NCBI GenBank assembly: GCA_017459965.1
Contig: JAFUBW010000014.1
Coordinates: forward strand, 263,174 to 327,173
Direction of reading: 5' to 3'
DNA length: 64,000 nt
DNA from: Bacilli bacterium
GTDB taxonomy: Bacteria > Bacillota_I > Bacilli_A > RF39 > UBA660
Below the pieces are notes generated by a model, which was not told where the DNA came from, ran no database searches, and saw only the letters and a program-made list of their open reading frames with translations. A program made the position numbers and the translations under genes. Positions 25,074 to 62,748 of this stretch are shown piece by piece (the stretch's first letter is position 1; every line of letters starts with the position of its first letter).

Positions 25074-27620
25074 TTAATTAAGTTTTTTTAATATTTCTTC
25101 TAAAGAAAGTTTCTCATTTTCTAACTTTCTTTTTTCTTCTTCAACTAAATTAGCTGGAGCATTATTAACATAACCAGGATTTGATAAAAGTTTTTCTCTT
25201 CTTGAAATACTATTTTTTAGATTTTCTATTTGTTTTAATCTATTTTCTTTATCAGTTTCACTTTCTTCTTTTTCATAATAAATAGTTGCTTTAATTAAAT
25301 CAGATGAAACATTATATGATTTAATATCTAATTCTTCATTTATTAGATTATCATTTAATCTTAGTACATCAATAACTAGTTTATTATATATACTATCTTC
25401 AAATTTAATTTTTAAATCTTTAGAAATATTATTTTCTGTTTTTATATTTCTAAATTTCTTAATGAAGTTTATTTGATCTTCGATTATTTTTGCTTCTTCA
25501 TTAAAGATACATTCTTTATTATATTCAGGATAAGTACTTATCATAATAGATTCACTATCCTTTATTGGTAACATTCCATATATTTCTTCAGTTACAAATG
25601 GCATAAATGGATGAAGAAGTTTAAGTATTCCTGTTAAAACATAACATAATACTGATTTAGTAGTATTAGAATTACTATTAAATTTAGCAAATTCTATATA
25701 ACTAGAACAAAAGTCATCATAAACAAAGCTATATGTTTCAGAACCAAATATATTAAACTCATATTTATCCATATGCTTTATAGATGATTTTACTATATTT
25801 TCATACTTTGTTAGTATCCATTTATCTTCATTAGTTAAATTATCAAATGTATACTCTTTTAAATCTTCTATATTCATAAGTACAAATCTAGATGCATTCC
25901 ATAGTTTATTAATATAATTCCATGTTGATGACATTTTAGTTTCATCAAATCTAAGATCAGTACCAAACGCACAGTCTGTATTTAGATAATATCTAAGTGC
26001 ATCTGTACCATATTTTTCTATCATATCAAATGGATCTATACCATTACCTAATGACTTAGACATTTTCCTTCCTTCTTTATCTCTTACAAGTCCATGAATA
26101 ACGCAGTCTTTAAATGGTCTTACATCTGTTAATTCTTCAGATTGGAACATCATTCTAGATACCCAGAAGAATATAATATCATAACCTGTAACTAGGCAAT
26201 CATTTGGAAAATACTTTTCTAAATCTTTTGTTTTATCTGGCCAACCAAGTGTTGCAAATGGCCAAAGAGCAGATGAGAACCATGTATCTAATACATCTTC
26301 ATCTTGAACCCAATCATCACCTGGTTTTTCTTCACCAACATATATTTCATCATCTTTATAATAAGCAGGTATTCTATGACCCCACCAAAGTTGTCTTGAT
26401 ATACACCAATCATGGCAATCTGTCATCCAAGCTTTTAATGTGTTTTCAAATTTCTTTGGAACAAAGTTAACTTTTTCATCTTTATCTTTTTGTATTTCAA
26501 GTAAGTTATTAGATAATCCTTTCATGTCAACAAACCATTGTTTTTTTACCATAGGTTCAACCATTACACCAGTTCTTTCTGAGTGACCAACTTCATGAAC
26601 TAGTGGTTCAATTTGTAAAAGAAGTCCAAGTTCTTTTAAATCCTTAATAACTTCTTCTCTAGCATCTTCTCTAGTCATTCCTTGATATTTTTTAGGAACA
26701 TTTTCATTCATAGTAGCATCATCATTTAAAATAACTATTCTCTCTAAATTATGTCTATTACCTACTTCAAAGTCATTAGGATCATGAGCAGGAGTTATTT
26801 TAACAGCACCTGTTCCTTTTTCCATATCCGCATGTTCATCTGTTATAACTGGTATTGGTTTATTAACAAGTGGAAGTATAACATTTTTACCTACAAAATC
26901 TTTATATCTTTCATCTTTTTCGTTAACTGCTACTGCAGTATCACCAAATAAAGTTTCTGGTCTTGTGGTTGCTACATCTATATATTTATCTGATCCTTCA
27001 AGAATATACTTGATATGATAAAATGCACTTTTTTCTTCAAAATATTCAACTTCTTCATTAGATAAAGATGTCTGAGCTTGAGGATCCCAATTTATTATTT
27101 TTTCTCCTCTATATATTATTCCTTTATTATAATAATCTATAAATACTTTTTTAACTGCTTTAGCAATACCATCATCCAAAGTAAATCTTTCTTTTGAATA
27201 ATCAAGTGAAATACCTAATGCCGCCCATTGTTTTCTAATTATATCACCATGTTCATGAGTCCAATCCCAGCATGCATCTATAAATTTTTCTCTTCCATAT
27301 TCATACTTATTTATGCCTTTATCTTTTAATCTTTTAACAACTTTTGCTTCAGTAGCAATAGCAGCATGATCCATACCTGGAAGCCATAAAGTATCAAAAC
27401 CTTTCATTCTTTTATATCTTATGATAGCATCTTGAATAGCAACATCATATGCGTGACCTATATGAAGTACTCCAGTAACATTTGGAGGTGGTAAAACTAT
27501 AGAATATGGAGTTTTATTACTATCTGGATCGCATTTAAAATAACCTTTTTCTTTCCATATTTCATATTTACCTTCTTCAACTTTTAAATGATTATATTTA
27601 GTTTCTAGCACATTTATCAT
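25074..27620 (-). CDS. valS: Valyl-tRNA synthetase
   Basis: 848 aa, class I synthetase of normal bacterial length. It charges tRNA-Val. Visible: PPPNVTGVLHIGHAYDV (HIGH), the editing-domain TTRPETLFGDTAV, WPFATLGWP, and GRKMSKSLGNGIDP (KMSKS). The C-terminal arm ends in a Lys/Glu-rich coiled coil (RREKLLSNPGYVNNAPANLV region) typical of ValRS. Regulated by the T-box leader directly upstream. Confidence 0.97.
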   Translation of the reverse strand: MINVLETKYNHLKVEEGKYEIWKEKGYFKCDPDSNKTPYSIVLPPPNVTGVLHIGHAYDVAIQDAIIRYKRMKGFDTLWLPGMDHAAIATEAKVVKRLKDKGINKYEYGREKFIDACWDWTHEHGDIIRKQWAALGISLDYSKERFTLDDGIAKAVKKVFIDYYNKGIIYRGEKIINWDPQAQTSLSNEEVEYFEEKSAFYHIKYILEGSDKYIDVATTRPETLFGDTAVAVNEKDERYKDFVGKNVILPLVNKPIPVITDEHADMEKGTGAVKITPAHDPNDFEVGNRHNLERIVILNDDATMNENVPKKYQGMTREDAREEVIKDLKELGLLLQIEPLVHEVGHSERTGVMVEPMVKKQWFVDMKGLSNNLLEIQKDKDEKVNFVPKKFENTLKAWMTDCHDWCISRQLWWGHRIPAYYKDDEIYVGEEKPGDDWVQDEDVLDTWFSSALWPFATLGWPDKTKDLEKYFPNDCLVTGYDIIFFWVSRMMFQSEELTDVRPFKDCVIHGLVRDKEGRKMSKSLGNGIDPFDMIEKYGTDALRYYLNTDCAFGTDLRFDETKMSSTWNYINKLWNASRFVLMNIEDLKEYTFDNLTNEDKWILTKYENIVKSSIKHMDKYEFNIFGSETYSFVYDDFCSSYIEFAKFNSNSNTTKSVLCYVLTGILKLLHPFMPFVTEEIYGMLPIKDSESIMISTYPEYNKECIFNEEAKIIEDQINFIKKFRNIKTENNISKDLKIKFEDSIYNKLVIDVLRLNDNLINEELDIKSYNVSSDLIKATIYYEKEESETDKENRLKQIENLKNSISRREKLLSNPGYVNNAPANLVEEEKRKLENEKLSLEEILKKLN

Positions 27621-27633
27621 CCCTTTCTTATAA

Positions 27634-27872
27634 TAAAAAAAGACAAGTCATCCTTAAAAGGACGAACTTGTCGTGGTACCACCTTTATTCATAGTATTTC
27701 TACTACCTTAAAGTCTTAATGCGACTAACAGCATATCTTACTACTTTTTTCAGATACACAACTTGCAAGCTACCTTCAATTACTCTTCATTAAGAAAGGC
27801 TTTCAGCCAGTGACCTTTCATCTCTAATAATTACTAAGTAATCTACTCCTCTTGGTCTTTGTCTTTCAATAT
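27634..27872 (-). promoter_or_regulatory. T-box riboswitch of valS
   Basis: On the minus strand GGTGGTACCACG (27672-27683) is the T-box core. The terminator stem GACAAGTTCGTCC / GGATGACTTGTC with a U-run is at 27634-27675. Stem I can be drawn with upper stem ATTACTT / GAGTAAT and lower pairing CAAG / CTTG. The specifier loop then reads GAAG-GTA-G, GTA being a Val codon, which fits the gene it controls. Uncharged tRNA-Val should favour readthrough. Confidence 0.9.
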
Positions 27873-31074: not shown

Positions 31075-31866
31075 TTATTTCTTTTTACATATGTATAACA
31101 TGTGATTACTATAACCTTGTAAGTCTTCTCTTTCACATGTTGATAAATGATACTTCATCCAAATATCAAATTCTTCCTTTGTTAAAGAATCTATTTTTTC
31201 TTTAACATGATTTGTAAAACCATCGGTTGCAACATTATGTAATAATTCAACATCAAATTTATTCATAATATTTTTAAATTCTGATATATAAAATGGTGCA
31301 AATACACCTTCTGGATATCTAACTAATTTAAAGGTATCATTATAATCATTTGGATATCCATTTATTAAATGATTATCCATTAATACCCAATCAATCATTA
31401 TTGAATCACTAGTTAAATATGCTATCGCGATTATTCCTTCTTTTTTGGTAACTCTAATTACTTCTTTAATTGCCTTATTTATATCATTATCATCATATAA
31501 ATGATATAAAGGTCCTAAAACTAAAGTTACATCAAAGGTATTATCATCATATCTACTTAAGTCTAATGCATCACCTTGATGAGCTTCAATATTCATATTT
31601 TCATTTATTTTCGATTTTAATATTTCAACATTATGTTTAACATATTCAATAGCAGTTACATCATATCCTTTTTCTGCATAATAAAGAGAATATCTACCTG
31701 TACCCGCACCTACTTCTAAAATTTTATCACCTGGTTTTAAATATTTATCAATATATTTGATTGTAGTTAAAAACTCTACTCTACCATGTTGACTAAGTAG
31801 TCTTTCTTCTTCATCACATTCCACAGAATAAAAATTATTTAATATTCTTTCTCTGTCATTTCCCAT
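31075..31866 (-). CDS. Class I SAM-dependent methyltransferase
   Basis: 263 aa from the ATG at 31864-31866, which follows AGAAGGGTTATGT. Rossmann SAM site ILEVGAGTGRYSLYYAEKGYDVTAIEYVKHNV; motif II TFDVTLVLGPLYHLYDD; end ...TKEEFDIWMKYHLSTCERED. Substrate unknown. A paralogue at 51065-51838 shares this plan, including the STCERxDL-type end. It is preceded by a structured leader with its own promoter and terminator, so its transcription may be attenuated. Confidence 0.82.
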   Translation of the reverse strand: MGNDRERILNNFYSVECDEEERLLSQHGRVEFLTTIKYIDKYLKPGDKILEVGAGTGRYSLYYAEKGYDVTAIEYVKHNVEILKSKINENMNIEAHQGDALDLSRYDDNTFDVTLVLGPLYHLYDDNDINKAIKEVIRVTKKEGIIAIAYLTSDSIMIDWVLMDNHLINGYPNDYNDTFKLVRYPEGVFAPFYISEFKNIMNKFDVELLHNVATDGFTNHVKEKIDSLTKEEFDIWMKYHLSTCEREDLQGYSNHMLYICKKK

Positions 31867-32003
31867 ACATAACCCTTCTTTCCTTTTATTCGTGTTTAAT
31901 AAAAAAGCCACGAATAACCATTCGTGACTCCAATTGTATTGTGTAGGTTCTTCACCCGAGACAGCTCACATGATAATAAATAATGCTTATGTCTCCTCAC
32001 TTG
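31867..32003 (-). promoter_or_regulatory. Structured leader with attenuator before the methyltransferase gene
   Basis: The minus-strand RNA holds GAGACA / TGTCTC closing a long loop, then GGT-GAAGA-ACC, then the terminator stem CACGAAT / ATTCGTG (31909-31926) followed by GGCTTTTTT. A third CACGAAT copy at 31886-31892 near the ribosome site can pair with the same ATTCGTG. I do not recognise it as a named riboswitch class. Confidence 0.5.
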
Positions 32004-32009
32004 CTTTAA

Positions 32010-32037
32010 ATTATACACTATTTAAAATATTTGTCAA
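32010..32037 (-). promoter_or_regulatory. Promoter of the methyltransferase leader
   Basis: TTGACA and TATAAT are 16 bases apart on the minus strand. The stretch 32038-32231, between this promoter and the end of the argS-like gene, is AT-rich and holds nothing else I can support apart from the short A/T hairpin AGTTTTT/AAAAACT after the argS stop. Confidence 0.7.
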
Positions 32038-32231: not shown

Positions 32232-33914
32232 CTAAAACTTATTAACTGGATGGATTCCAAGAATACTCATACCATTTGATAATACTTTTTTAGTGGCATT
32301 CAATAAAGCTAATCTTGAATTTTTTATTATCTCATCATCTTCAGATAATATAGATACTTGTTCATAATATCTAGCAAATTTTTGTGATATGCTTTGTAAA
32401 TAGTTAGTAATAACCACCGATTCTTGAGTATTAAATGAATTTGTTATTACATCTGGAAAGTCATATAAACTATTTATCAAAGAGTGTTCTAGTTCTTCTT
32501 TGAATTTATAAATTTGACTATTGTCAAAATTATAGTTTGATTTTTCTAAAATAGAATTAATTCTTACATAATTATATAATAAATATATAGCTGAATTTCC
32601 TTGAAAATCTGTTGCAGTTTCTAAATTAAAATTAACTGTCTTTTTTCTATTTACATTTAACATATTATATTTAATACAAGAAGCTGCTAAGTCAGATACA
32701 AGTTCTTCTGATACACTATTACCTTTTTCCTTAAACACTTCAATTATTTTTTCTTTTGCCTTTTCAATAAATTCTTCTAATAAAACTACTTTACCTTCTC
32801 TAGTTGCCATCTTATCACCATTTAATAACACAAAATCATACGATATTAATTTAGGTGCAGGATATCCAAGTATATCTAATGCAGATGCGATCTGTTGCAT
32901 ATAAACTTCTTGATCCTCTCCCAAAACTATCAAATTATTATCTGAATTTCTCTCTATTTTTGAAATAGTATATGCAATATCTCTCAAAGGATATAAAGAT
33001 GTTTTATCTTCTCTTGTTAAAACTAATACTGGAGATTTAGTTGGTATATTATATCCAGTTAAATCAACATATAATCTTCCATTTTCATCTTCCTTTAACC
33101 TTCCAGCAGTCATTAATTTGTCAAGAATTTCTGAAGTTTTATTTTCAAAAACATAATCAGATTCATGAGTAAAATTATCCCATTTAATATCTAATTTTTT
33201 AAATATATCTTGTTGTCCCTGAACACAAATATCAGTTATTCGCTTAAATTTATCTCTAACTTCTTCATTACCAGATTCTAATTGATATAAATAATTAAAA
33301 ACTTGTTTTTCAATATTCTTGTCTGTTTTTACAAGTTCGTTAATATCAATATATAAGTTTAACATATCCTTAAAAGTAATATTATCTATATTTCCAAGTT
33401 TTTCTACGCCTACTAATAACATAGCAATCTGCTTTCCAATATCATTTATAAAATAATTTGCCTCAACATTATATCCTTCAAATTTATATAATCTAACTAA
33501 AAAATCGCCAATTATACTATTTCTTGATCTTCCTATATGTGGTGAAGCATTAGGATTTATTGATGTATGTTCTATTAATAAATCTTTTCCTTTACCAAAA
33601 CCTTTTGAACCATATTTTTCATTACTTTGAATTTCTTTTAATGTTTCGTTAGCTATAAAATTTTTATTAACAAAAAAGTTTAAATAAGGCCCTACAACAT
33701 TCATTCTTGATATAATATTTTCATTTAATCGGAGCATTTTCAATATCTTCTCCGCCTTATCATGAGGATTATTACATTCTTCAATATTAATAGTAAAACA
33801 AGGTAAAGCAAAATCGCCCATATCTTCTTTTGGTGGTCTAACTATATCAATATTTTTTAAATCTATTCCTGCACTATTTAATTCTTCTATTATGTACTTT
33901 TTAAAATCAAACAT
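32232..33914 (-). CDS. argS: Divergent arginyl-tRNA synthetase at the end of the biosynthetic operon
   Basis: 560 aa from the second of two ATGs at 33912-33914, after GAGGGGAAATG. Class I ArgRS features: N-terminal Add1-like domain with PPKEDMGDFALPCF, catalytic NPNASPHIGRSRNS, GLTREDKTSLYPLRDIAYT-like KTSLYPLRDIAYT, GDKMATREGKVV in place of KMSKS, and a DALR-type helical end. The usual HIGH reads HIGR. It is the last gene of an operon of metabolic enzymes, so it may be a self-protection copy, a supplier of Arg-tRNA for the pathway, or simply the cell's only ArgRS placed here. Confidence 0.85.
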   Translation of the reverse strand: MFDFKKYIIEELNSAGIDLKNIDIVRPPKEDMGDFALPCFTINIEECNNPHDKAEKILKMLRLNENIISRMNVVGPYLNFFVNKNFIANETLKEIQSNEKYGSKGFGKGKDLLIEHTSINPNASPHIGRSRNSIIGDFLVRLYKFEGYNVEANYFINDIGKQIAMLLVGVEKLGNIDNITFKDMLNLYIDINELVKTDKNIEKQVFNYLYQLESGNEEVRDKFKRITDICVQGQQDIFKKLDIKWDNFTHESDYVFENKTSEILDKLMTAGRLKEDENGRLYVDLTGYNIPTKSPVLVLTREDKTSLYPLRDIAYTISKIERNSDNNLIVLGEDQEVYMQQIASALDILGYPAPKLISYDFVLLNGDKMATREGKVVLLEEFIEKAKEKIIEVFKEKGNSVSEELVSDLAASCIKYNMLNVNRKKTVNFNLETATDFQGNSAIYLLYNYVRINSILEKSNYNFDNSQIYKFKEELEHSLINSLYDFPDVITNSFNTQESVVITNYLQSISQKFARYYEQVSILSEDDEIIKNSRLALLNATKKVLSNGMSILGIHPVNKF

Positions 33915-33996
33915 CATTTCCCCTCTTTCTTGGCATATTATTCTATAATAATATATTATTTTTGTCAAGAATTATAATATTTTGCTAATTTCATAA

Positions 33997-36372
33997 TTAT
34001 AAATTATTATTTGGTAATTTATTAATAATTTTCTCAAATGAGCTATCATAAGGAATTGGTAATTTTACATTATCTAAAACTCTAATTATCATATCATCTA
34101 ATTCAATAAACACGCATAATGCTTCTACCAATTCCTCATTTACATCATTATCTAATTTTTTATATTCATTTAGTATAGAATTATACTCATCTTTATTTAG
34201 ACAAGTTTCCATTTTTATAAAGGCCAAATCCCATTCTTTTATTCCAATTTTTGCTCCTCCAGCATCAATTATTGCAGATAATTTAAACAACCCATCATTA
34301 TTACTAACCAATATATTATTTGGATTCAAATCAAACCAAATTAATTGTGGAATTAATTTAGAATCATATTTTTTTATTATTTTTAATTTTTCTTTGGCAA
34401 TCTTTATCATATAATTATAATCTTCTTTTTCTATTTTACCTTCAATTGCATCAGAAAATCTTTTTAATTCATTTTCTAAATATAAACTGAAAGATTCATT
34501 TTCAAAAACTTCATTATCTGTTATCCAACCAAATTTATATTTAACAGGAACACCATGAATTATTTTTAGAACTTTTGCAAGATCTGATGCAATATAATTC
34601 AATTTAAATTTAGCACATTTTCGCAATTTATCAATTGTATTTCCTTCTTTATATTCTGTTAATAAACATGATTTTTCTGTTTCTACTGAATAGGATAATG
34701 CATTTGCTATATATTGTGTGTGTTTATGATTAAAAATCATATTTAAAATATCAAATTTTTTCTTTGCTTGATACATTGTTCCATCATAATATTCTTGATA
34801 AATATATTTTTGATATTTGTTTTCAAGTAAATAAGTTTTACATCTCAATCCTCCAAATAATTCAGTTTTTTGATATTCATCAATGTTAATATTTTGTAAT
34901 TCTTCAACTTTCTTTCTTTTAATTTTGCCAGTACCAGTTGTTGGTAATTCAGATACAATTTTAATATTTCCTATAACATAATCTTTTAAATTATTGTTTA
35001 TGTAATCATATAAATCTTCAATCACATATTTTCTTTTTAAAATTACAAATAAATCAAAGTAATAAAAATTTGCTATTTCATTGTAATTTGTTTTAACATG
35101 TACTCGACTAATTCCAGAAAAATTATATAATTTATTTTCTAAATCACGTAATTGATTATCATCAAAACGCAATGCCTTTAAATCACTAAATCTTCCGGCT
35201 ATGTAATAATAACCATCCTTATCTCTTCTAACAACATCATTTGTATTAAACCAATTATCTTTTTTTACTTGTTCTCTCAATCCAGGTATACCAACATAAT
35301 CCTTAAACACCATAGGTCCTTTAATCCAAAGCAATCCCCAATCACCATTTTCAACCGGATTACCTTCTAAGTCTAAAATTTTACATTCTGTATTGGATAC
35401 AACTTTACCTAAACTTCCGACTTTTCTTTCTGAAGCGCTATAATTAAAATGTGTCAAAGAAGCTGTTTCTGTTAGACCATAACCCTCAGTAATAATGGCC
35501 CCAGTTATTTTCTCAAATTTTTTTATACATTCAATAGGTAACGAATCACCTCCAGAATCACATATTTTTAAATTTGATAGATTTATCAATTCATTTTCAT
35601 AATTATTAATTAAATCTATATACATATAAGGTGAACCTGGAAAAACTGATGGTTTCATTTTTTTATTTATTTCGATAAATAAATTTGAATTCCATTTGTT
35701 CATGATTATTAAACTAGCTTTTGATACAATTGAACTTGTTAAACATGCAAACATTGCATAATTATGCCACAATGGTAATACTGTAATTATTTTAGAATTA
35801 TTGTCTAAATTATATACTTTTCTATATTCTTCTGAAACAAAAGTTATATTTTTATAAGTTAACTCCACACCTTTTGAAAATGAATTACTTGTTCCACTGG
35901 TATAAGACACAACTAATGTATCATTTTCTTTCATATTAGATGGAATAAAATTTAATTGTTTATTATAATTATCAAAATTAATTTTTGATAAATTTATTAC
36001 ATTTAATTTATTTTTCAAAAATGATATTTTTTCTATAGTTCTATCATTTATTATAATATTATTTAATCTATTTTTTTTAATAATATCTTCAAGTTCATCA
36101 TTTTCAACAGTATCACTAATCGATACAACAATTTTATTATTAAGTAAGATTGAATAAAATGCATTTACGAATTCATTGCAATTATCCATTATTATACCTA
36201 TTTTTTTATCTTTTGATATATCTAAGTTATGCAAATAGTTTGAAAATGATATTATTTCTGACATTTTTAATTCTTTTTTATATAATTTTTCATCTACCAT
36301 ATGAGCTTCAACAGAAACTACATATTCTTTATCTTTAATATTATCTACAATATAATTTAATAAATTTTTCAT
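33997..36372 (-). CDS. Adenylation (ANL) domain fused to an APH-type kinase domain
   Basis: 791 aa. Residues 1-495 form an AMP-forming acyl/aminoacyl ligase: core A3 YTSGTSNSFSKG (157-168), EGYGLTETA (A5), GRFSDLKA (A8, 393-400), TTGTGKIKRK (A10, 478-487). Residues 500-790 form an aminoglycoside phosphotransferase/choline-kinase fold: the catalytic loop WFDLNPNNILV with Asp681 and Asn686, and metal Asp703 in AIIDAGGA. No carrier-protein domain is present. One polypeptide would both activate an acid and phosphorylate a product or precursor. Two bases separate it from asnB. Confidence 0.82.
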   Translation of the reverse strand: MKNLLNYIVDNIKDKEYVVSVEAHMVDEKLYKKELKMSEIISFSNYLHNLDISKDKKIGIIMDNCNEFVNAFYSILLNNKIVVSISDTVENDELEDIIKKNRLNNIIINDRTIEKISFLKNKLNVINLSKINFDNYNKQLNFIPSNMKENDTLVVSYTSGTSNSFSKGVELTYKNITFVSEEYRKVYNLDNNSKIITVLPLWHNYAMFACLTSSIVSKASLIIMNKWNSNLFIEINKKMKPSVFPGSPYMYIDLINNYENELINLSNLKICDSGGDSLPIECIKKFEKITGAIITEGYGLTETASLTHFNYSASERKVGSLGKVVSNTECKILDLEGNPVENGDWGLLWIKGPMVFKDYVGIPGLREQVKKDNWFNTNDVVRRDKDGYYYIAGRFSDLKALRFDDNQLRDLENKLYNFSGISRVHVKTNYNEIANFYYFDLFVILKRKYVIEDLYDYINNNLKDYVIGNIKIVSELPTTGTGKIKRKKVEELQNINIDEYQKTELFGGLRCKTYLLENKYQKYIYQEYYDGTMYQAKKKFDILNMIFNHKHTQYIANALSYSVETEKSCLLTEYKEGNTIDKLRKCAKFKLNYIASDLAKVLKIIHGVPVKYKFGWITDNEVFENESFSLYLENELKRFSDAIEGKIEKEDYNYMIKIAKEKLKIIKKYDSKLIPQLIWFDLNPNNILVSNNDGLFKLSAIIDAGGAKIGIKEWDLAFIKMETCLNKDEYNSILNEYKKLDNDVNEELVEALCVFIELDDMIIRVLDNVKLPIPYDSSFEKIINKLPNNNL

Positions 36373-36374
36373 TA

Positions 36375-38123
36375 TTATGCAACCTCCAATTCAAAAACTT
36401 TTTCAAAACGCCAATATACAAGTAACCACCATTGTTCTTGTTCAGTAAAATTGTTAACATCATCTAACACTTCAGATTTTATTAATTTTCTAATTATATT
36501 ACTTTTGCATATTTCATCCCAATTATCATTACATAATTTAGTAATAATTTCATTATATATTTTTGGTGGTTCTGGAAATGGATATTTCTCTCTATTAACA
36601 ATACTATCAGGGAGTTTATCCTTAGCATATTGCCTTACAATATATTTTTCTCTTCCATCCTCTAATTTTATTTTAGAGTTTGATTTGTATGCTAATTCAA
36701 CAATTCTATGATTATCAACAAATGGAACTCTGCTCTCTATACTATTCATCATTGCTATTTTATCTTCTTGAATTAATAAATCATGTAATATAGTTTTCAA
36801 TGACAAATCACCATAAGAATTTATTTCATCGTCTGAAAGAACTAAGTAATTGTCAAGATAATTATTTAAAATATTAGGAACTAAATTTTTTATATCCACA
36901 TTTATTTTATCCTTAAATATCATGTTATCAATATAATAATCGTATATTAATGATTTATGGTTATATTTTTCTTTTAAAAACTGAAAAATTTTCCATGTGA
37001 ACACATAACCTAACCATACTTCATCTGAACCCTGACCACTTACAACCACTGTAAAACCATCATCTTTAGCCGCTTTATAATTAAAATACATTGGAATATA
37101 AACTTTATCAATCAATATTTCCTCAACGCCATAAATTACCTTATCAATAACATCAATATTATACATATCTTCTTTTATTAATATATTATGATTTTTAAAT
37201 CCTTCCTTTTTAGCCAAAATATTTGCATGATTAAGATCAAAATCATTATCAAAATCATAACAAATTGTATAGGTATTTAATTTGGTATTAGAGTAATCAT
37301 TTAATAATTTACATACAATACTACTATCTAATCCTCCAGATAAAAATGCTGCAATTGGTACTTGAGATAATAATTTTTTTCTAACAGAATCAGTAAATTC
37401 TTTTTCAAAATCAGTTACTAGTTTTTTTGAATCATTATATTGATTAGAAAATTTAAAAGAATGATATTCATGATCTTTAAATTTGTCATCTTTGATGATT
37501 ACATAATGACCTGGTTTAATACTATAAATATCTTTAAATAAAGTTTGATGTGGATCCATCCATAACTTACAATTTAATGAAATAAGAACTTGATCAATGT
37601 TAAATTTTCTTGGTACTTTTGAAAACTCTAATATTGATTTTATTTCACTTGCATATAGTAATTCTTCATCACTATTGTAATAATAAAGTGGTTTGATCCC
37701 AAATTTATCACGGACTAAATATAGTTCTTTGGTATTTTTATTGTAAAGTGAAAATGCGTAGCATCCCTCAATTCTATTTAATGTATTATCAAGTCCATAG
37801 CAATCTAACATTTTAATCAATACTTCAGTGTCTCCAATAGTATCAAAAGTATATCCATTATTAACTAATTCCATTTTTAGTTCTAAAAAATTATATATTT
37901 CACCATTAAAAGATAACACTAAATCTTTATAACAAAAAGGTTGTTTTGATTTTTCACTAACATCTTGTATTTTTAATAATACATGTCCACAACCTACATT
38001 ACCGTCTATATAAATACCTTCTCCGTCTGGGCCTCTGTGTTTTATTTTCTTTAGCATTTGTTTTATATCTATTTCGGAAACTTCTTTTTTATTTTTATTA
38101 ATTATTCCAACTATTCCACACAT
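36375..38123 (-). CDS. asnB: Glutamine-hydrolysing asparagine synthetase-like amidotransferase
   Basis: 582 aa. N-terminal Ntn glutaminase: Cys2 nucleophile (MCGIVG), HRGPDGEG, LSFNGEIYNF, and RDKFGIKPLYYY. C-terminal synthetase: AFLSGGLDSSIV pyrophosphate loop, VVSGQGSDEVWLGY, and VPFVDNHRIVE. Converts Asp to Asn, or amidates a pathway acid or lactam precursor as related enzymes do. Its place between SDR and ligase genes suggests a pathway role rather than housekeeping. GGAGGTAAAAA precedes the ATG. Confidence 0.88.
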   Translation of the reverse strand: MCGIVGIINKNKKEVSEIDIKQMLKKIKHRGPDGEGIYIDGNVGCGHVLLKIQDVSEKSKQPFCYKDLVLSFNGEIYNFLELKMELVNNGYTFDTIGDTEVLIKMLDCYGLDNTLNRIEGCYAFSLYNKNTKELYLVRDKFGIKPLYYYNSDEELLYASEIKSILEFSKVPRKFNIDQVLISLNCKLWMDPHQTLFKDIYSIKPGHYVIIKDDKFKDHEYHSFKFSNQYNDSKKLVTDFEKEFTDSVRKKLLSQVPIAAFLSGGLDSSIVCKLLNDYSNTKLNTYTICYDFDNDFDLNHANILAKKEGFKNHNILIKEDMYNIDVIDKVIYGVEEILIDKVYIPMYFNYKAAKDDGFTVVVSGQGSDEVWLGYVFTWKIFQFLKEKYNHKSLIYDYYIDNMIFKDKINVDIKNLVPNILNNYLDNYLVLSDDEINSYGDLSLKTILHDLLIQEDKIAMMNSIESRVPFVDNHRIVELAYKSNSKIKLEDGREKYIVRQYAKDKLPDSIVNREKYPFPEPPKIYNEIITKLCNDNWDEICKSNIIRKLIKSEVLDDVNNFTEQEQWWLLVYWRFEKVFELEVA

Positions 38124-38138
38124 TTTTTACCTCCCATA

Positions 38139-38867
38139 CTATTTCAATAGTATTCCACCATTTATATCAATATTTTCACCATTTATATAATCAGATTCTT
38201 TGCTTATCAAAAAAGATATTAAATTATATATATCTTGTGATTCACACAATCTTTTTCTTGTAGATTTTTCTTTAACTTCATCGATTTCCTTTTTAGTATA
38301 TGATTTTAATGTCAACGGAGTTAGTGTTAAAGATGGGCTTACACAATTAACCCTAATTGAATACTTTTCTAATTCTAGAGCTGAACATTTTGTCAACATA
38401 ACAATAGCAGATGCAGAACAACAATATGCTGACGAATCACTCATGGGCCTAGTTGCTAGTCTTGAGGCAATATTTATAATTGATGGATAATTTGATTTTT
38501 TTAACAAAGAAATTGCATATTTTGTACAAAACGCTTTACCAACCAAATTTGTTCTCACAATTTTATCAAATTCAACATAATCATATTTTTCAATCTTATC
38601 CATATAATCATATGCTGCATTATTTATTAAAACATCAATGTAATTATGTTGATTTCTAATTTTATTAAATGCTTCTATTATTTCTTTTTCTATTGTTATA
38701 TCACATTTAATAAAAATTATATTATCGCTATTTATTTCTTTTTTTACTTTTTTTATTTTTTCAATATTTTTTGACAATATATAAACATAGTCTGTTTCTG
38801 AAAATTTTTCGGACAAATAACGCCCAATTCCAGATGTACCACCAGTAATTACTATAACTCTATTCAT
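38139..38867 (-). CDS. Short-chain dehydrogenase-like protein without the catalytic Lys
   Basis: 242 aa with a normal Rossmann start (VITGGTSGIG) and NNAA in place of NNAG. Ser135 (INIAS) and Tyr148 are present, but the YxxxK motif reads YCCSA, so position 152 is Ala instead of Lys. Either it is an inactive or binding protein, or catalysis works differently. The rest (VNCVSPSLTLTPL, ENIDINGG) is regular. It overlaps the PHP gene by 8 bases and sits 15 bases from asnB. Confidence 0.85.
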   Translation of the reverse strand: MNRVIVITGGTSGIGRYLSEKFSETDYVYILSKNIEKIKKVKKEINSDNIIFIKCDITIEKEIIEAFNKIRNQHNYIDVLINNAAYDYMDKIEKYDYVEFDKIVRTNLVGKAFCTKYAISLLKKSNYPSIINIASRLATRPMSDSSAYCCSASAIVMLTKCSALELEKYSIRVNCVSPSLTLTPLTLKSYTKKEIDEVKEKSTRKRLCESQDIYNLISFLISKESDYINGENIDINGGILLK

Positions 38868-39693
38868 TAAAAAAACTCCTTTTTAATATTTTTTGCTCAT
38901 TTTTACTAATAAATGTGTTACCAAAGCTTATATTATCATCTTCACAGTGCCAATCACTTCCAACAGTTGCAATTAGATTATATTTTTTAGACATTTCAAT
39001 TGAAAATTCTCTTTCACTTGCAGAATCAAACGAATAATATGCTTCTATTCCTTGTATTCCACAATCTTTTAGATATTTTATGTATTTCTCCTTTTCGTCA
39101 TAATTCATATTTAAGCGTTTTGGATGCGCTAAAACTGCTACACCACCAACTGAATTGATTAATTCAAGAATTTCTTCTACAGAGTATTTAGGATATGAAA
39201 CATGATATGTAGAATTATTATTTAAAAACATATCATACGCATCAAATCTTGATTGAACTGCACCAAGTTTTTCTAATAAAATGCATAAATGATTAATTAA
39301 TAGATGTCTTCCTTCTGACATTTTTTTTACATCATCTAACGAAACAAAAATCCCATCATTTTTTACCCTTTCAATACCTTCTAAAATTGCATTTATTCTT
39401 AAAGTTCTTTCCTTTTCTAAAAAAGAATTTAATTGATTTTTATTTTTATAATTATAGCATAGCAAATGAAGATATTTTGAATTTTTAACATCATAATATG
39501 CCTCAAGTTCTACACCAGGAATAGTAACAATATTCTTTCTTTGACATTCCTTTTTAAATGACTCATACCCTAAAATACAATCATGATCTGTTAGTACAGC
39601 ATGTGTTATTCCATTTAAATAAAGTTTATTTACTAGATCTGATGTAGTTAAAGATCCATCAGACCAAGTTGTATGTAAATGCATATCAATCAT
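38860..39693 (-). CDS. PHP-domain phosphoesterase
   Basis: 277 aa. All PHP metal motifs are visible: MHLHTTWSDG, LTDHD, PGVELEAY, HLLCYNY, VLAHPKR and GSDWHCEDD. Relatives (TrpH/YciV) remove phosphate from nucleotides or amino-acid-type phosphates. Next to a kinase domain, it could remove a protective phosphate (inference). Its ATG overlaps the TGA of the aminotransferase gene and its end overlaps the SDR start, so it is tightly coupled to both. Confidence 0.88.
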   Translation of the reverse strand: MIDMHLHTTWSDGSLTTSDLVNKLYLNGITHAVLTDHDCILGYESFKKECQRKNIVTIPGVELEAYYDVKNSKYLHLLCYNYKNKNQLNSFLEKERTLRINAILEGIERVKNDGIFVSLDDVKKMSEGRHLLINHLCILLEKLGAVQSRFDAYDMFLNNNSTYHVSYPKYSVEEILELINSVGGVAVLAHPKRLNMNYDEKEKYIKYLKDCGIQGIEAYYSFDSASEREFSIEMSKKYNLIATVGSDWHCEDDNISFGNTFISKNEQKILKRSFFNE

Positions 39694-40853
39694 AATAATT
39701 CCTCCTTATATTTTATACAAGAATCTACTAGTAAATCCATAGCCTTTTTTATTTTATTATCATCTAGTGTTACACAAATTCTTATTTTATTTCTACCTGT
39801 ATTACTAATATAAAAATCACTTGCTGGTGTAACCAACAATGAATAATTATTCTTTTTATATTTTTCTATTAACCATTCAACATATTTTTCTGTATCAAAT
39901 GGTAATTCCAATATCATCGTTAATCCTCCATGTGGACATATGTACTTTATCTCAGTTTTATTTAACTTTTTTTGAATAATATTAATTCTATTATGATATA
40001 TTTTTTTAGAATTCTCAATTATTTCATCTGCCTTATCCAACATTTTAGAAACAGCAAATTGCTCTACATTTGAAATAGATATTCTACAATCATTTATCAT
40101 TATAATATTACTATTTAATTCGTTATTATTAGAAATAATATAACCTATTCTCGATCCACATAAATTCAATTTTTTAGAAGCAGAATCAACAACAACTACA
40201 TTGTTGTCTAAATAATTCAAAAAAGAAATGTATTTATTATCATAAATCAATCCACTATAAACTTCATCAGATATTATAATTAAATTATGCTTTTTAGATA
40301 CTTCAAGAATTCGCTTTGCAAGCTGCTTAGTTATAATTGCTCCATCTGGATTATTAGGGTTTGCAAAAAGAATTGCTTTAGTTTTATTATTTATATTTTT
40401 TTCAAAAAAATCATTATTTAAATCATTCCAACTTACTGCTCTAATTTTTATATTTAACATGTTACAATACATTTTATAATCTGCAAAAAAAGGTTCTAAT
40501 ATAATTATTTCATCACCACAATCACAAATAGAATATAAAAGTTTAATAATCGCATCTGATGCACCTTGAGTAATAATTATATTGTCTTCATCCAAAGAAA
40601 TATTATTATATAATTTTTTGTAATATCTAGCAACAGATGTTTTTAATTCACATGCACCAGATGGGTCTCCATATTTATTTGTTTTTACATTATATTTGGA
40701 TAATGATTCAAAATATGTAGAATTTGTATCAAAATCTGGTTGTCCCATATTTAATTTGTAAAATTTTATACCATCTTGTTCTCTCCTTTTTATCAAGTCA
40801 TTATATTTTGAAAATATAGATTTCTTCATATTTAGTATTCTCTTCGCCAACAT
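39690..40853 (-). CDS. PLP-dependent aminotransferase, class I/II
   Basis: 387 aa from the ATG at 40851-40853 after AAAGGAGTTGATAATA. Fold type I features: LNMGQPDFDT, NIIITQGASDAI, FANPNNPDGAI, SDEVYSGL, the PLP-lysine segment VDSASKKLNLCGSRIGY, and IRICVT near the end. Resembles aspartate/aromatic aminotransferases. As first gene of the six-gene operon, it probably supplies or consumes an amino/keto acid of the pathway. It lies 36 bases downstream of rel and may share its message. It ends with TGA. Confidence 0.88.
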   Translation of the reverse strand: MLAKRILNMKKSIFSKYNDLIKRREQDGIKFYKLNMGQPDFDTNSTYFESLSKYNVKTNKYGDPSGACELKTSVARYYKKLYNNISLDEDNIIITQGASDAIIKLLYSICDCGDEIIILEPFFADYKMYCNMLNIKIRAVSWNDLNNDFFEKNINNKTKAILFANPNNPDGAIITKQLAKRILEVSKKHNLIIISDEVYSGLIYDNKYISFLNYLDNNVVVVDSASKKLNLCGSRIGYIISNNNELNSNIIMINDCRISISNVEQFAVSKMLDKADEIIENSKKIYHNRINIIQKKLNKTEIKYICPHGGLTMILELPFDTEKYVEWLIEKYKKNNYSLLVTPASDFYISNTGRNKIRICVTLDDNKIKKAMDLLVDSCIKYKEELL

Positions 40854-40889
40854 TATTATCAACTCCTTTTTTTTAAATTTCAATAATAT

Positions 40890-42329
40890 CTATTCCTTAT
40901 TAAATTCTAATATTTTTCTCTTTGCTTTTGTTGTTTGTGCTTTATCTAGCCAATCTTTTCTAGGTCCAAATGATTTTGGATCTGTTATTATTTTTACTAT
41001 ATCTTTATTTTGAAGTACATACTCTACTGGAACATATTCATCATTTACAATAGCAGCTACCATAGTATTTCCTAGTTGTGTATGTATTTTATATGCTAAA
41101 TCTATTGGTGTAGAACCTGCTGGAAGTTCCATTCTATCTCCTTTTGGAGTATATACATATATCTTTTTAGATTTTAATAATTCTTCTTTTACTCTTTCTA
41201 CAAAATCTTCATTATCTACAAACATTTTATCTATTTGCTTTAATGATTTATAAAATTGAAATTCATCATTTAAATCTTTTTGCATTTCATCTCTAGCTTG
41301 TCCTTTATTAATATCCCAATAAGTTGTTAAACCAAATGATGCGATTTTATCCATATCAAATGTTCTTATTTGAGCTTGTACTAATCTTTCATCTGCAAAT
41401 ACTGTTGTATGCAAACTTCTATACATATTACTTTTTGGATTATATATATAATCTTTAAATTTTGAACATAATGGATTATATTTAGAATGTATTATTCCAA
41501 GTGTTTGATAACAATTTGAAATTGTATCAACCATTATTTTAAGTGTCATTAAATCATGTATATCATTCATCCTAAGACCATCTTCTAATTGTTGATATAT
41601 ACCATATATATTTTTTGTTCTTATTTTTATTTCATTAGGTATATTATTATCACTTAATATATTTTTAATTGCATTTAACATTTCCGTTAAACATGGCTTA
41701 CTATCTTCTTCCACTATTTTTAAATTTTCTTTTATTTTTTTATATTTGTCTGGTTTTAAATAACTAAGTGATATATCTTCAAGTTCACTTTTTATTCTAT
41801 ATGCTCCTATATAATTAGCAAGTGGTGCGAAAATATCAAGTGTTTCTATAGAATTTTCTTTTTGTTTAAATGGATCTTTAAATTCTAAAGTTCTCATATT
41901 ATGAAGTCTATCAGCAAGTTTTATTATTACTATTCTTACATCATCCATTATACTTGTTATTATTTTTCTTGTATTAGCATTTACTTGGTCTTGCTTACTT
42001 GAAAAATTTAATTTACTAATTTTAGTAACACCATCAACTAGTTTTGCTACTTCTGGATTAAATTGATTAGATATTTCTTCTTTAGTTGTTTCAGTATCTT
42101 CTAAAGTATCATGTAAAAGTCCAGCACATATAGTATCTTGGTCAGCATGAAGTTCTGCAAGTGTATATGCTACATTAAGTGGATGGATTATATACGGCTC
42201 TCCACTTTGCCTTAATTGTCCATCATGTAAATAGTAAGCATATGAATATGCTTTCTTTACCATAGGAATAGCTTCTGGATTATATTCTTCTAATTTTGTT
42301 ATTAAATCTTCTAGTGATAACTGATTCAT
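40890..42329 (-). CDS. rel: RelA/SpoT-family (p)ppGpp enzyme, short form with altered synthetase site
   Basis: About 479 aa, start at 42327-42329 after GGAGGTGAATATT. The HD hydrolase domain is intact (YIIHPLNVAY, GLLHDTLEDT, KLADRLHNMRT). The synthetase domain follows (RTKNIYGIYQQLED, NPKSNMYRSLHTTVF), but its essential Glu in the (E)xQIRT motif reads Gln (LVQAQIRT). A TGS domain (IYVYTPKGDRMELPAGSTPIDLAY) ends the protein, without the usual C-terminal ACT region. It may therefore be mainly a hydrolase. A structured attenuator leader precedes it. Confidence 0.85.
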   Translation of the reverse strand: MNQLSLEDLITKLEEYNPEAIPMVKKAYSYAYYLHDGQLRQSGEPYIIHPLNVAYTLAELHADQDTICAGLLHDTLEDTETTKEEISNQFNPEVAKLVDGVTKISKLNFSSKQDQVNANTRKIITSIMDDVRIVIIKLADRLHNMRTLEFKDPFKQKENSIETLDIFAPLANYIGAYRIKSELEDISLSYLKPDKYKKIKENLKIVEEDSKPCLTEMLNAIKNILSDNNIPNEIKIRTKNIYGIYQQLEDGLRMNDIHDLMTLKIMVDTISNCYQTLGIIHSKYNPLCSKFKDYIYNPKSNMYRSLHTTVFADERLVQAQIRTFDMDKIASFGLTTYWDINKGQARDEMQKDLNDEFQFYKSLKQIDKMFVDNEDFVERVKEELLKSKKIYVYTPKGDRMELPAGSTPIDLAYKIHTQLGNTMVAAIVNDEYVPVEYVLQNKDIVKIITDPKSFGPRKDWLDKAQTTKAKRKILEFNKE

Positions 42330-42536
42330 AATATTCACCTCCAATAAATCAAAAAACCGGCAGCTGTCCGCAAGTCCGCGGAAGTTACCGGTTTAATCCT
42401 CTATGACAGAAGAAGATATGCATAGTAAAGAAGTATTAATAAATAGTTTTTTAATACCTATGAGACAATTATCAATTTTAGATATTAATATACTTCTTTT
42501 CATACATATCTACCCCTTCTTGAAATAATTTCTCCT
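42330..42536 (-). promoter_or_regulatory. Attenuator-like leader of rel
   Basis: About 200 nt between a promoter and the rel start. It holds a 36-codon ORF (42393-42503, MKRSILISKIDN...), an imperfect 13-bp stem (AGAAGTATATTAATA pairing with TATTAATACTTCT), and a GC-rich terminator at 42354-42394 (AAACCGG...CCGGTTT with inner TCCGC/GCGGA) followed by T-run. The ORF stops at the base of the terminator stem, as in translational attenuators. Confidence 0.6.
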
Positions 42537-42566
42537 ATTTTAGTACTTTTTGTAGGGGTTTGTCAA
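42537..42566 (-). promoter_or_regulatory. Promoter of the rel leader
   Basis: TTGACA (42561-42566) and TAAAAT (42537-42542) are 18 bases apart on the minus strand, between the ABC-F stop and the leader. Confidence 0.7.
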
Positions 42567-42589: not shown

Positions 42590-44101
42590 TTAGTTAACTA
42601 AATCAATTCTATGTAATCCATTTTTATCTAATTCATATACGGTATCTATAACTTCATTTATATATTTTCTATCATGAGAAATACTTATTATACAACCATT
42701 ATAATTTTTAAGTACATCTCTAATAACTGGATTTGAAAGTGGACTCACATTTCTAGTTGGTTCATCTAATATAAGTACATCACATTTGTCTAGTTCTAAT
42801 TTTATTAAAAATAATTTTGCTTTAGATCCATTTGATAAGTCTTTTATTTTTCCAGTCATTTCCTCTTTTGTAAATTTGATATTACCTAAAAACATTCTAG
42901 CATGTGTTATATCTTCTTTTTTACCACTTGGACATATAAAATCTAAAACATTTTCATAGTTATCTAATATATCATCATAGTTTTGTGGCATATAACCTAT
43001 TTTAATATCATCTCTTTTACTTAATTCTTTATAAATTAGTTTTATTAAAGTAGTTTTACCTGTTCCATTTTTACCTATGATACATACATGAGAATTACCC
43101 ATTATATTTAACACAATATTTTTAGATAATGTTTTATTATCTACTGTTAATTTATCTATATTTAAATCTAATATAATTTTATTTCTAGGTATATTTACTT
43201 TTTCAAAATATAAATTAATGGATTCTTCAACATCAGGCACATCAGTTAAAACTACTTTATCTAGTTTTTTCTCTTGTGATTTTAAAGAATGCATTTTCTT
43301 TTTTAAAAGTCTTGCACCATGTGGATCCTTTCTTGAAATAGATGCTTGTTGATTTTCAACTTTTTGTAACACTTTATTTAACTTTTCTTCTTGTATTTTA
43401 TATTCTCTTTTTTCATTATTAGCGATTTTAGTTTGTTTATCGATTAATCTTAATCTATCATTTATATAAGTATCATAGTCTATTTTTAAAAGTGTATATT
43501 TACATTCTGATTTTTTCTTTATTTGTTCAATATGAAGAATCATATTTGCAGTTTTAGATAAAAGTGTTTCATCATGTGATACATATATAATTGGTTTTGG
43601 AGTACTTTTAATAAATTCTTCTAACCACTGTAAAGTTTCGATATCTAAATCATTTGTTGGTTCATCTAAAAATAATATATCATTTCCCTCTAATAATAAT
43701 TTTAATATACTTATTTTAACTTTTTCTCCACCTGACAATATATTTATTTTTTGATTTAATATTTCATCAGATATATTAATTATTTTTAAATATTTATAAA
43801 ATTCATTTATTTTGTAATAATAATCATTATTATCTTTAAATAAATAATCAAATACTTTTAATTTTAATTCATCATCTGTAAGTGATTGTTTTAAATAACC
43901 TATTTTATTTTCTTTTAAATTAATAGTACCTTTAATATCTGCATAATCACATATTCCAAGTATACATTTTAATAAGGTAGATTTACCATTACCTTCTTCA
44001 CCAATAATGGCTAGTTTATCATTTTTATTTAATATTAATGATAAATCTTTAATTATATATCTATTATTAATTTTAATAGTTAAATTGTTTATTTCTAACA
44101 T
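42590..44101 (-). CDS. ABC-F ATPase, ribosome-protection type
   Basis: 503 aa from the ATG at 44099-44101 after AAAGGAGGCATAACT; the longer frame begins in the attenuator hairpin. It has two ATPase domains without membrane segments: Walker A IGEEGNGKST and IGKNGTGKTT, signatures LSGGEKVKIS and LSNGSKAKLF, Walker B LFLDEPTNDLD and LILDEPTRNVSPLSNPVIR. The linker (KKMHSLKSQEKKLDK) is of ABC-F type. The DEPTRNxSPLSxPVIR form recalls antibiotic-resistance ABC-F proteins that free ribosomes from lincosamide, pleuromutilin or similar drugs. Regulated by a leader peptide and hairpins. Confidence 0.82.
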   Translation of the reverse strand: MLEINNLTIKINNRYIIKDLSLILNKNDKLAIIGEEGNGKSTLLKCILGICDYADIKGTINLKENKIGYLKQSLTDDELKLKVFDYLFKDNNDYYYKINEFYKYLKIINISDEILNQKINILSGGEKVKISILKLLLEGNDILFLDEPTNDLDIETLQWLEEFIKSTPKPIIYVSHDETLLSKTANMILHIEQIKKKSECKYTLLKIDYDTYINDRLRLIDKQTKIANNEKREYKIQEEKLNKVLQKVENQQASISRKDPHGARLLKKKMHSLKSQEKKLDKVVLTDVPDVEESINLYFEKVNIPRNKIILDLNIDKLTVDNKTLSKNIVLNIMGNSHVCIIGKNGTGKTTLIKLIYKELSKRDDIKIGYMPQNYDDILDNYENVLDFICPSGKKEDITHARMFLGNIKFTKEEMTGKIKDLSNGSKAKLFLIKLELDKCDVLILDEPTRNVSPLSNPVIRDVLKNYNGCIISISHDRKYINEVIDTVYELDKNGLHRIDLVN

Positions 44102-44145
44102 AGTTATGCCTCCTTTTTTCGGCATAATAAAAGTTTATGCCAAAC
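44102..44145 (-). promoter_or_regulatory. Mutually exclusive hairpins controlling the ABC-F ribosome site
   Basis: On the minus-strand RNA, GGCATAA (44135-44141), TTATGCC (44121-44127) and a second GGCATAA (44104-44110) lie in order. The middle segment can pair with either. The last one overlaps the GGAGG ribosome site of the ABC-F gene, so pairing 2-3 hides it and pairing 1-2 frees it. Confidence 0.65.
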
Positions 44146-62507: not shown

Positions 62508-62748
62508 TAAAAAACAGTTATCTTCCCAAAAGGGACGAATAACTGTTAAATCCGTGGTACCACCCAAATTATCACTTTCGTGATCACTCTATACATAACG
62601 CAGTATTAGACGCATTTCCCTACTTAGTTTCAAGAAATGAACTCCGTGGTGTTCTTTCATATTACTATTAATATCCATTCTCATCATTTAGGACTCTCTG
62701 TTAAAAAATCATAATATTACTTTTCCACATCAAAGTTTTTACTAGAAA
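62508..62748 (-). promoter_or_regulatory. T-box riboswitch of aspS-gatCAB, specifier reads Asn (AAC)
   Basis: On the minus strand, GGTGGTACCACGG (62552-62564) and the terminator AACAGTTATTCGTCCC / GGGAAGATAACTGTT with U-run (62508-62548). Stem I: lower pair GTGG / CCAC, upper pair TATTA / TAGTA, AGTA S-turn on the 5' side. The 3' side of the loop reads GAAAG-AAC-A just before CCAC, which puts AAC (Asn) at the specifier position; GAA (Glu) overlaps it as GAAC (62651-62654). Confidence 0.88.

Follow-up and report, generated by a model that had tools for sequence, protein, structure and literature searches.

A predicted protein joining an adenylation domain to an APH-type kinase fold, encoded in a Bacilli operon that adjoins a second arginyl-tRNA synthetase

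Can one bacterial protein activate a carboxylic acid and phosphorylate it without any carrier between the two activities? This question is raised by a gene located at positions 33997..36372 (minus strand) of the 64,000-nucleotide stretch of DNA analysed here (the window). The gene encodes a protein of 791 aa in which an ANL adenylation domain (residues 1-492, approximately) is followed by an APH-fold domain (approximately residues 500-791), and its frame runs from an ATG start at 36372 to 33997 with no internal stops. Since no second copy of this fusion was found, the continuous chain looks like an apparent new enzyme combination for a small-molecule pathway.

Domains and junction of the fusion protein

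The ANL domain (34897..36372, minus strand) was matched by Pfam AMP-binding at residues 42-359 (E 5e-50), and its alignment with acyl/aryl-CoA ligases of the PDB runs through residue 492. All the core motifs of the superfamily are present, namely A3 (the P-loop, YTSGTS..KG), A5 (GYGLTE), the A7 Asp (NTND), the A8 Arg (GR) and the A10 Lys (TGTGK). The positions given for these motifs in an earlier note on this DNA were borne out, with YTSGTS at 157, GYGLTE at 297, YYIAGR at 389 and TGTGKIKRK at 479. According to the PDB and NCBIfam matches, acyl and aryl ligases are the closest families, ranking well ahead of NRPS modules, and an acyl, aryl or hydroxy acid is for this reason a likelier substrate than an alpha-amino acid. 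The fusion shares with acyl/aryl-CoA ligases (4-coumarate-CoA ligase, FadD, luciferase) the fold and the adenylation motifs, but identity to those found among the genomes of relatives is about 30% at best, the P-loop contains one extra residue and a kinase-fold domain is attached at the C-terminus. In addition, the post-hinge thioester loop reads GRFSDLKALRFDDNQL and lacks the glycine of the acyl/aryl-CoA ligase subfamily, which is kept in 21 of 21 distinct ANL comparators.

Adenylating enzymes normally pass their product to CoA or to a carrier protein. In the fusion, residues 492-500 form a short linker and the NRPS-type thiolation (carrier) domain that could follow an adenylation domain is absent; the Pfam search gave only AMP-binding and APH, with no match to a carrier-protein domain, in agreement with the earlier note. 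From the degenerate thioester loop and the missing carrier we infer that the ANL half could make an acyl-AMP and transfer it directly to a nucleophile, without CoA. Use of an acyl-AMP without a carrier is known from free-standing ANL ligases such as Cfl. This ligase (PDB 7a9j) was matched by the fusion with E 1.4e-16, but it has no kinase domain.

The APH-fold domain (33997..34875, minus strand) is more divergent. When the C-terminal 289 residues were searched alone, APH (PF01636) was obtained with E 9e-5 and 22.7 bits, slightly under the Pfam cut-off of 23.2, a match that is weak but, by the following alignment, not due to chance. A profile of 10 kinases from related genomes gave an alignment that starts at the Gly-rich loop and extends to the last helices, in which GG507-508 fall on the Gly-rich loop, D681 and N686 on the kinase catalytic loop and D703 on the metal Asp. 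The APH fold with Asp681, Asn686 and Asp703 that had been read from the letters is thus upheld, with its register kept. The domain resembles the APH phosphotransferase family in these residues and in the order of its elements, but differs from it in that the ATP-anchoring beta-3 Lys (Lys/Arg in kinases) is replaced by Gln and the His of the HxD motif, kept in 10 of 10 comparators, by Trp679; no close relative was found. These two substitutions and the missing thioester-loop Gly are three active-site departures that the earlier note had overlooked, while its description of the fusion, of the domain order and of the lack of a carrier stood. A single-sequence structure prediction gave no reliable model (mean pLDDT 30.6).

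Kinase activity is uncertain because of the Gln and Trp substitutions, although the mechanism proposed below takes the attached kinase as probably active. The same substitutions, the second of which sets the fusion apart from the ten comparators, and the Pfam score under the cut-off would be expected if the C-terminal domain were a degenerate (pseudo)kinase that binds a substrate or nucleotide or holds partners, the protein being then a plain adenylating ligase. This alternative is a serious one, although somewhat unlikely, since the domain retains its Gly-rich loop together with Asp681, Asn686 and the metal Asp703, and a phosphoesterase gene is found in the same operon.

The junction itself was inspected because two genes could have been joined by a frameshift. 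Its codons read GGA GGA TTG AGA TGT AAA ACT, and at codons 506-512 the +2 frame reads GGAGG, 6 nt and ATG TAA, with a good ribosome-binding site, so that one T fewer would give a 4-nt ATGA overlap, a spacing like that of the aminotransferase and PHP genes of this operon. Together with the presence of the gene in only one genome, this is what an assembly artefact or a very recent indel would leave if it had joined two genes, one for an ANL protein and one for a kinase, with an ATGA overlap between them. However, it is from GGA GGA that the Gly-rich loop of the kinase takes its glycines (FGGLRCKTYLL in the fusion versus IGGLTNKMYKL and TGGLTHRMFKV in relatives), so the kinase fold begins upstream of the candidate ATG and a restart there would remove the loop; the fused reading scored 35.4 bits and the restart 26.9, which is 8.5 bits better for the fused reading with a small profile of ten sequences. 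Moreover, no in-frame ATG is present from codon 480 to 532, the sole TTG (codon 509) abuts GGAGGA with a spacing of zero, and the 791 codons contain neither a stop nor any other frame break. A frameshift join appears unlikely on these grounds, and little probability is given to it. The claim of a single protein, for which the earlier note had named a frameshift between two genes as the refuting outcome, has therefore withstood the comparison, as the frame runs through the junction, carries the Gly-rich loop and scores higher when read as fused.

Rarity of the fusion and known systems

A whole-protein search of 98 relatives, 7 of them in the same genus, and of 392 genomes of a phylum set (490 in total) gave no homologue of the fusion, and none was found in viral contigs or plasmids; the C-terminal kinase domain alone had no match in 395 genomes of the class. 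Among about 85,000 species, a scan with peptides of the fusion itself gave no other fusion, and a scan with a loosened kinase motif (hand-written variants) gave 2 matches, neither of them with a kinase domain. These peptide-pattern scans detect only relatives sharing the particular peptides, and distant relatives of the fusion may exist. Separately, at least one of the 2 loosened-motif matches was discarded as an accidental hit of the pattern within an ordinary ANL gene, and the long ANL frames of relatives (G010, G017 and others) that were considered as fusions carry no kinase. The earlier note had also stated that the fusion would be refuted if homologues were always separate proteins; separate-protein homologues of the pair were not found, which speaks of rarity and is not a proof. 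No characterised adenylation-APH fusion was found in the literature searched.

The precedent for an APH-type kinase acting on an ANL-activated acid is given by LvaE with LvaA and by the kinase domains of ACAD10/11 (PMC6692424, PMC11342911). In contrast to the fusion, LvaE and LvaA are separate proteins, the kinase of ACAD10/11 is linked to a dehydrogenase, and these systems use CoA thioesters in catabolism and feed beta-oxidation. A catabolic role like that of LvaE/LvaA, in which a hydroxy acid would be ligated to CoA and phosphorylated and the phosphate then eliminated, would account for the same pair of activities with an oxidoreductase (LvaE, LvaA, LvaD), and P. citronellolis has a phosphatase gene close to one for an LvaA homologue (PMC6692424). 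This explanation is improbable here, because the operon has no acyl-CoA dehydrogenase, the Gly is absent from the thioester loop, and an AsnB, an aminotransferase and an extra arginyl-tRNA synthetase (ArgRS) are ill-suited to catabolism.

The operon, its leader and the second arginyl-tRNA synthetase

The fusion gene closes a tightly spaced minus-strand run that is headed by a short RelA/SpoT homologue (40890..42344) and continues with a class I/II PLP aminotransferase (39690..40883), a PHP-family metal phosphoesterase with metal motifs retained by inspection (38860..39693), a short-chain dehydrogenase-like (SDR) protein (38139..38867) and an AsnB-type glutamine amidotransferase (36375..38123). 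The aminotransferase and PHP genes overlap by 4 nt and the PHP and SDR genes by 8 nt, with gaps of 15 nt between SDR and AsnB and of 2 nt between AsnB and the fusion. A promoter-like site, TTGACA-18-TAAAAT, precedes the operon at 42537..42566 (minus strand; consensus match only), and directly upstream an ABC-F protein resembling ribosomal-protection factors is encoded (window 42590-44125). In the SDR protein the catalytic YxxxK reads YCCSA, and in AsnB the ATP/adenylate loop reads SGQG instead of SGEG, with SGE in ten relatives, which leaves room for partial decay of the operon or for other chemistry. The best PDB match of AsnB was a hydroxyamidotransferase (7ylz), and at a threshold of E<=1e-60 this genome showed no further AsnB copy. 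A cluster search via AsnB gave no close match in the class, the best one being 40% identical over only the N-terminal 373 residues, and no homologous gene cluster was found that would indicate conservation. That the operon is a decaying, horizontally acquired singleton without function, as replaced catalytic residues in three of its enzymes (the fusion kinase, SDR and AsnB) could suggest, is unlikely given that no frame is broken, that the genes lie close together in a genome of 1.06 Mb and that a strong terminator-leader element stands ahead of them.

This element consists of a 36-codon leader ORF (42393..42503, minus strand) and a terminator hairpin (42351..42395, minus strand; -22.3 kcal/mol, z -5.3) placed between the leader ORF and the RelA homologue, and it looks like a leader-peptide attenuation device. 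A family-wide comparison revealed that the short RelA has, at this similarity, a patchy distribution (49 of 193 family genomes). Among 41 copies, a terminator-like hairpin lies just before the gene in 32, by a simple, crude test, and a leader ORF in 25, by a test equally crude; the leaders (L144-L183) have little common sequence, several being Cys-rich or containing MRPL. Elsewhere in the window, a perfect promoter-like site (TTGACA-16-TATAAT) followed by a terminator hairpin is found at 31904-32037 before a methyltransferase gene (31075-31911), possibly another attenuator, and two T-box leaders are located at 27655-27868, upstream of ValS (25074-27620), and at 62528-62742.

The short RelA of the operon has an HD-SYN-TGS architecture in which the hydrolase motifs are kept and the synthetase Glu is lost. 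The same was observed in the variants listed for the 41 copies (including L035:3225-4664 and the L144-L183 loci), where another residue stands in place of the Glu in EIQIRT and both hydrolase motifs (HDxxEDT and ADRLHN) persist, and the reverse pattern, with a degenerate HD motif, was found in 7 housekeeping RelA proteins. From these motifs, the short RelA looks hydrolase-only and the long housekeeping RelA synthetase-only, as a split alarmone pair. The genes that follow the short RelA vary by genome, being ordinary in many and including YcaO/radical-SAM sets, S66 peptidases or tRNA synthetases in several. In the first two positions after it, about 8 of 78 genes encode tRNA synthetases, versus at least 1 of 76 distant controls of the same loci, counts in which some synthetases were assigned by eye and the control is a lower bound. 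The proposal that the short RelA marks clusters for aminoacyl-tRNA synthetase (aaRS) inhibitors only partly holds, and the main explanation has not been rested on it because of these varying contents and of the way in which the synthetases were counted.

The synthetases following the short RelA are Trp (L149), Val (L150), Asn-like (L158), Met (L160), Arg (L161), Tyr (L166), Asn-like (L168) and Glu (L183). Genes for S66 (LD-carboxypeptidase/MccF-like) peptidases occur in the operons of L157, where they accompany YcaO and radical-SAM genes, of L158 and L168, together with an AsnRS-like protein, a methyltransferase and a small kinase, and of L165, the L165 and L168 loci being assigned by eye. In a genus mate, a joined nitroreductase-YcaO protein of 706 aa (L035:1093-3213) follows the short RelA, and the neighbouring ValS has only about 30% identity with the ValS of the genus, a type for which that genome gave no match.

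Beyond the fusion gene, a second, divergent ArgRS is encoded at 32232..33968 (minus strand), its start being more likely the ATG at 33917, with a promoter-like site, TTGACA-17-TAGAAT, at 33940..33968 (minus strand; consensus match only). The gene has the features of a bacterial ArgRS, namely an ArgS model score, a HIGH-like motif and a DALR anticodon domain, and its product is about 30% identical to the other, housekeeping ArgRS of the genome. All seven genus mates have only the housekeeping type. As for the fusion, AsnB and the second ArgRS, each is either missing in genus mates or at most distantly related to anything in the class. The lineage of the second ArgRS occurs, scattered and without the fusion, in 8 of 193 family genomes (48-62% identity). 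Because its neighbours there are mostly ordinary genes, it may be the normal ArgRS of those genomes; here it is an extra one.

In operons of the albomycin, borrelidin and indolmycin type, a divergent second aaRS lies beside the biosynthetic genes. The spare ArgRS adjoins the operon here in a similar manner and possibly gives self-protection, its link to the operon being positional only. No ArgRS-targeting natural product accompanied by a spare ArgRS surfaced in the literature searched, and aaRS inhibitors have been reviewed (PMC7916415).

Proposed function

The preferred explanation, with a probability of about 45%, is that the fusion performs a carrier-free activation of an acid, probably coupled to phosphorylation, within an accessory small-molecule operon for which the spare ArgRS is possibly protective. 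The domains, the motifs, the operon and the extra ArgRS are observed in the DNA; the reactions, the substrate and the immunity role are assigned to them tentatively, as follows. The N-terminal domain would make an acyl-AMP from a carboxylic acid and hand it straight to a nucleophile, for instance an amine, and the APH-fold domain might, with less certainty, phosphorylate that acid or the product on a hydroxyl. The phosphate would be an intermediate or a protecting group, later removed by the PHP phosphoesterase, while the aminotransferase, the SDR-like protein and the AsnB-type amidotransferase could build or amidate the other part of the molecule. If the product were an arginine-like ArgRS inhibitor, the second ArgRS would protect the host. 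The kinase and the phosphoesterase in one operon fit the suggestion of the earlier note that the protein activates and phosphorylates the same molecule. Against this explanation, the kinase has neither the ATP-anchoring Lys nor the HxD His and could be inactive, and the second ArgRS has a promoter-like site of its own and belongs to a lineage that occurs without the fusion. A more specific version, by which the operon would yield an ArgRS-inhibiting acyl conjugate, phosphorylated or protected by phosphate, with the acid activated and phosphorylated by the fusion, the active form released by PHP and immunity given by the second ArgRS, is quite doubtful.

If the preferred explanation is true, this locus would represent a new wiring of acid activation to phosphorylation, with a kinase-fold domain on the activating enzyme, a phosphoesterase in the operon and a spare ArgRS adjoining it, and it could point the way to a compound, possibly directed at ArgRS, of a lineage that is uncultured.
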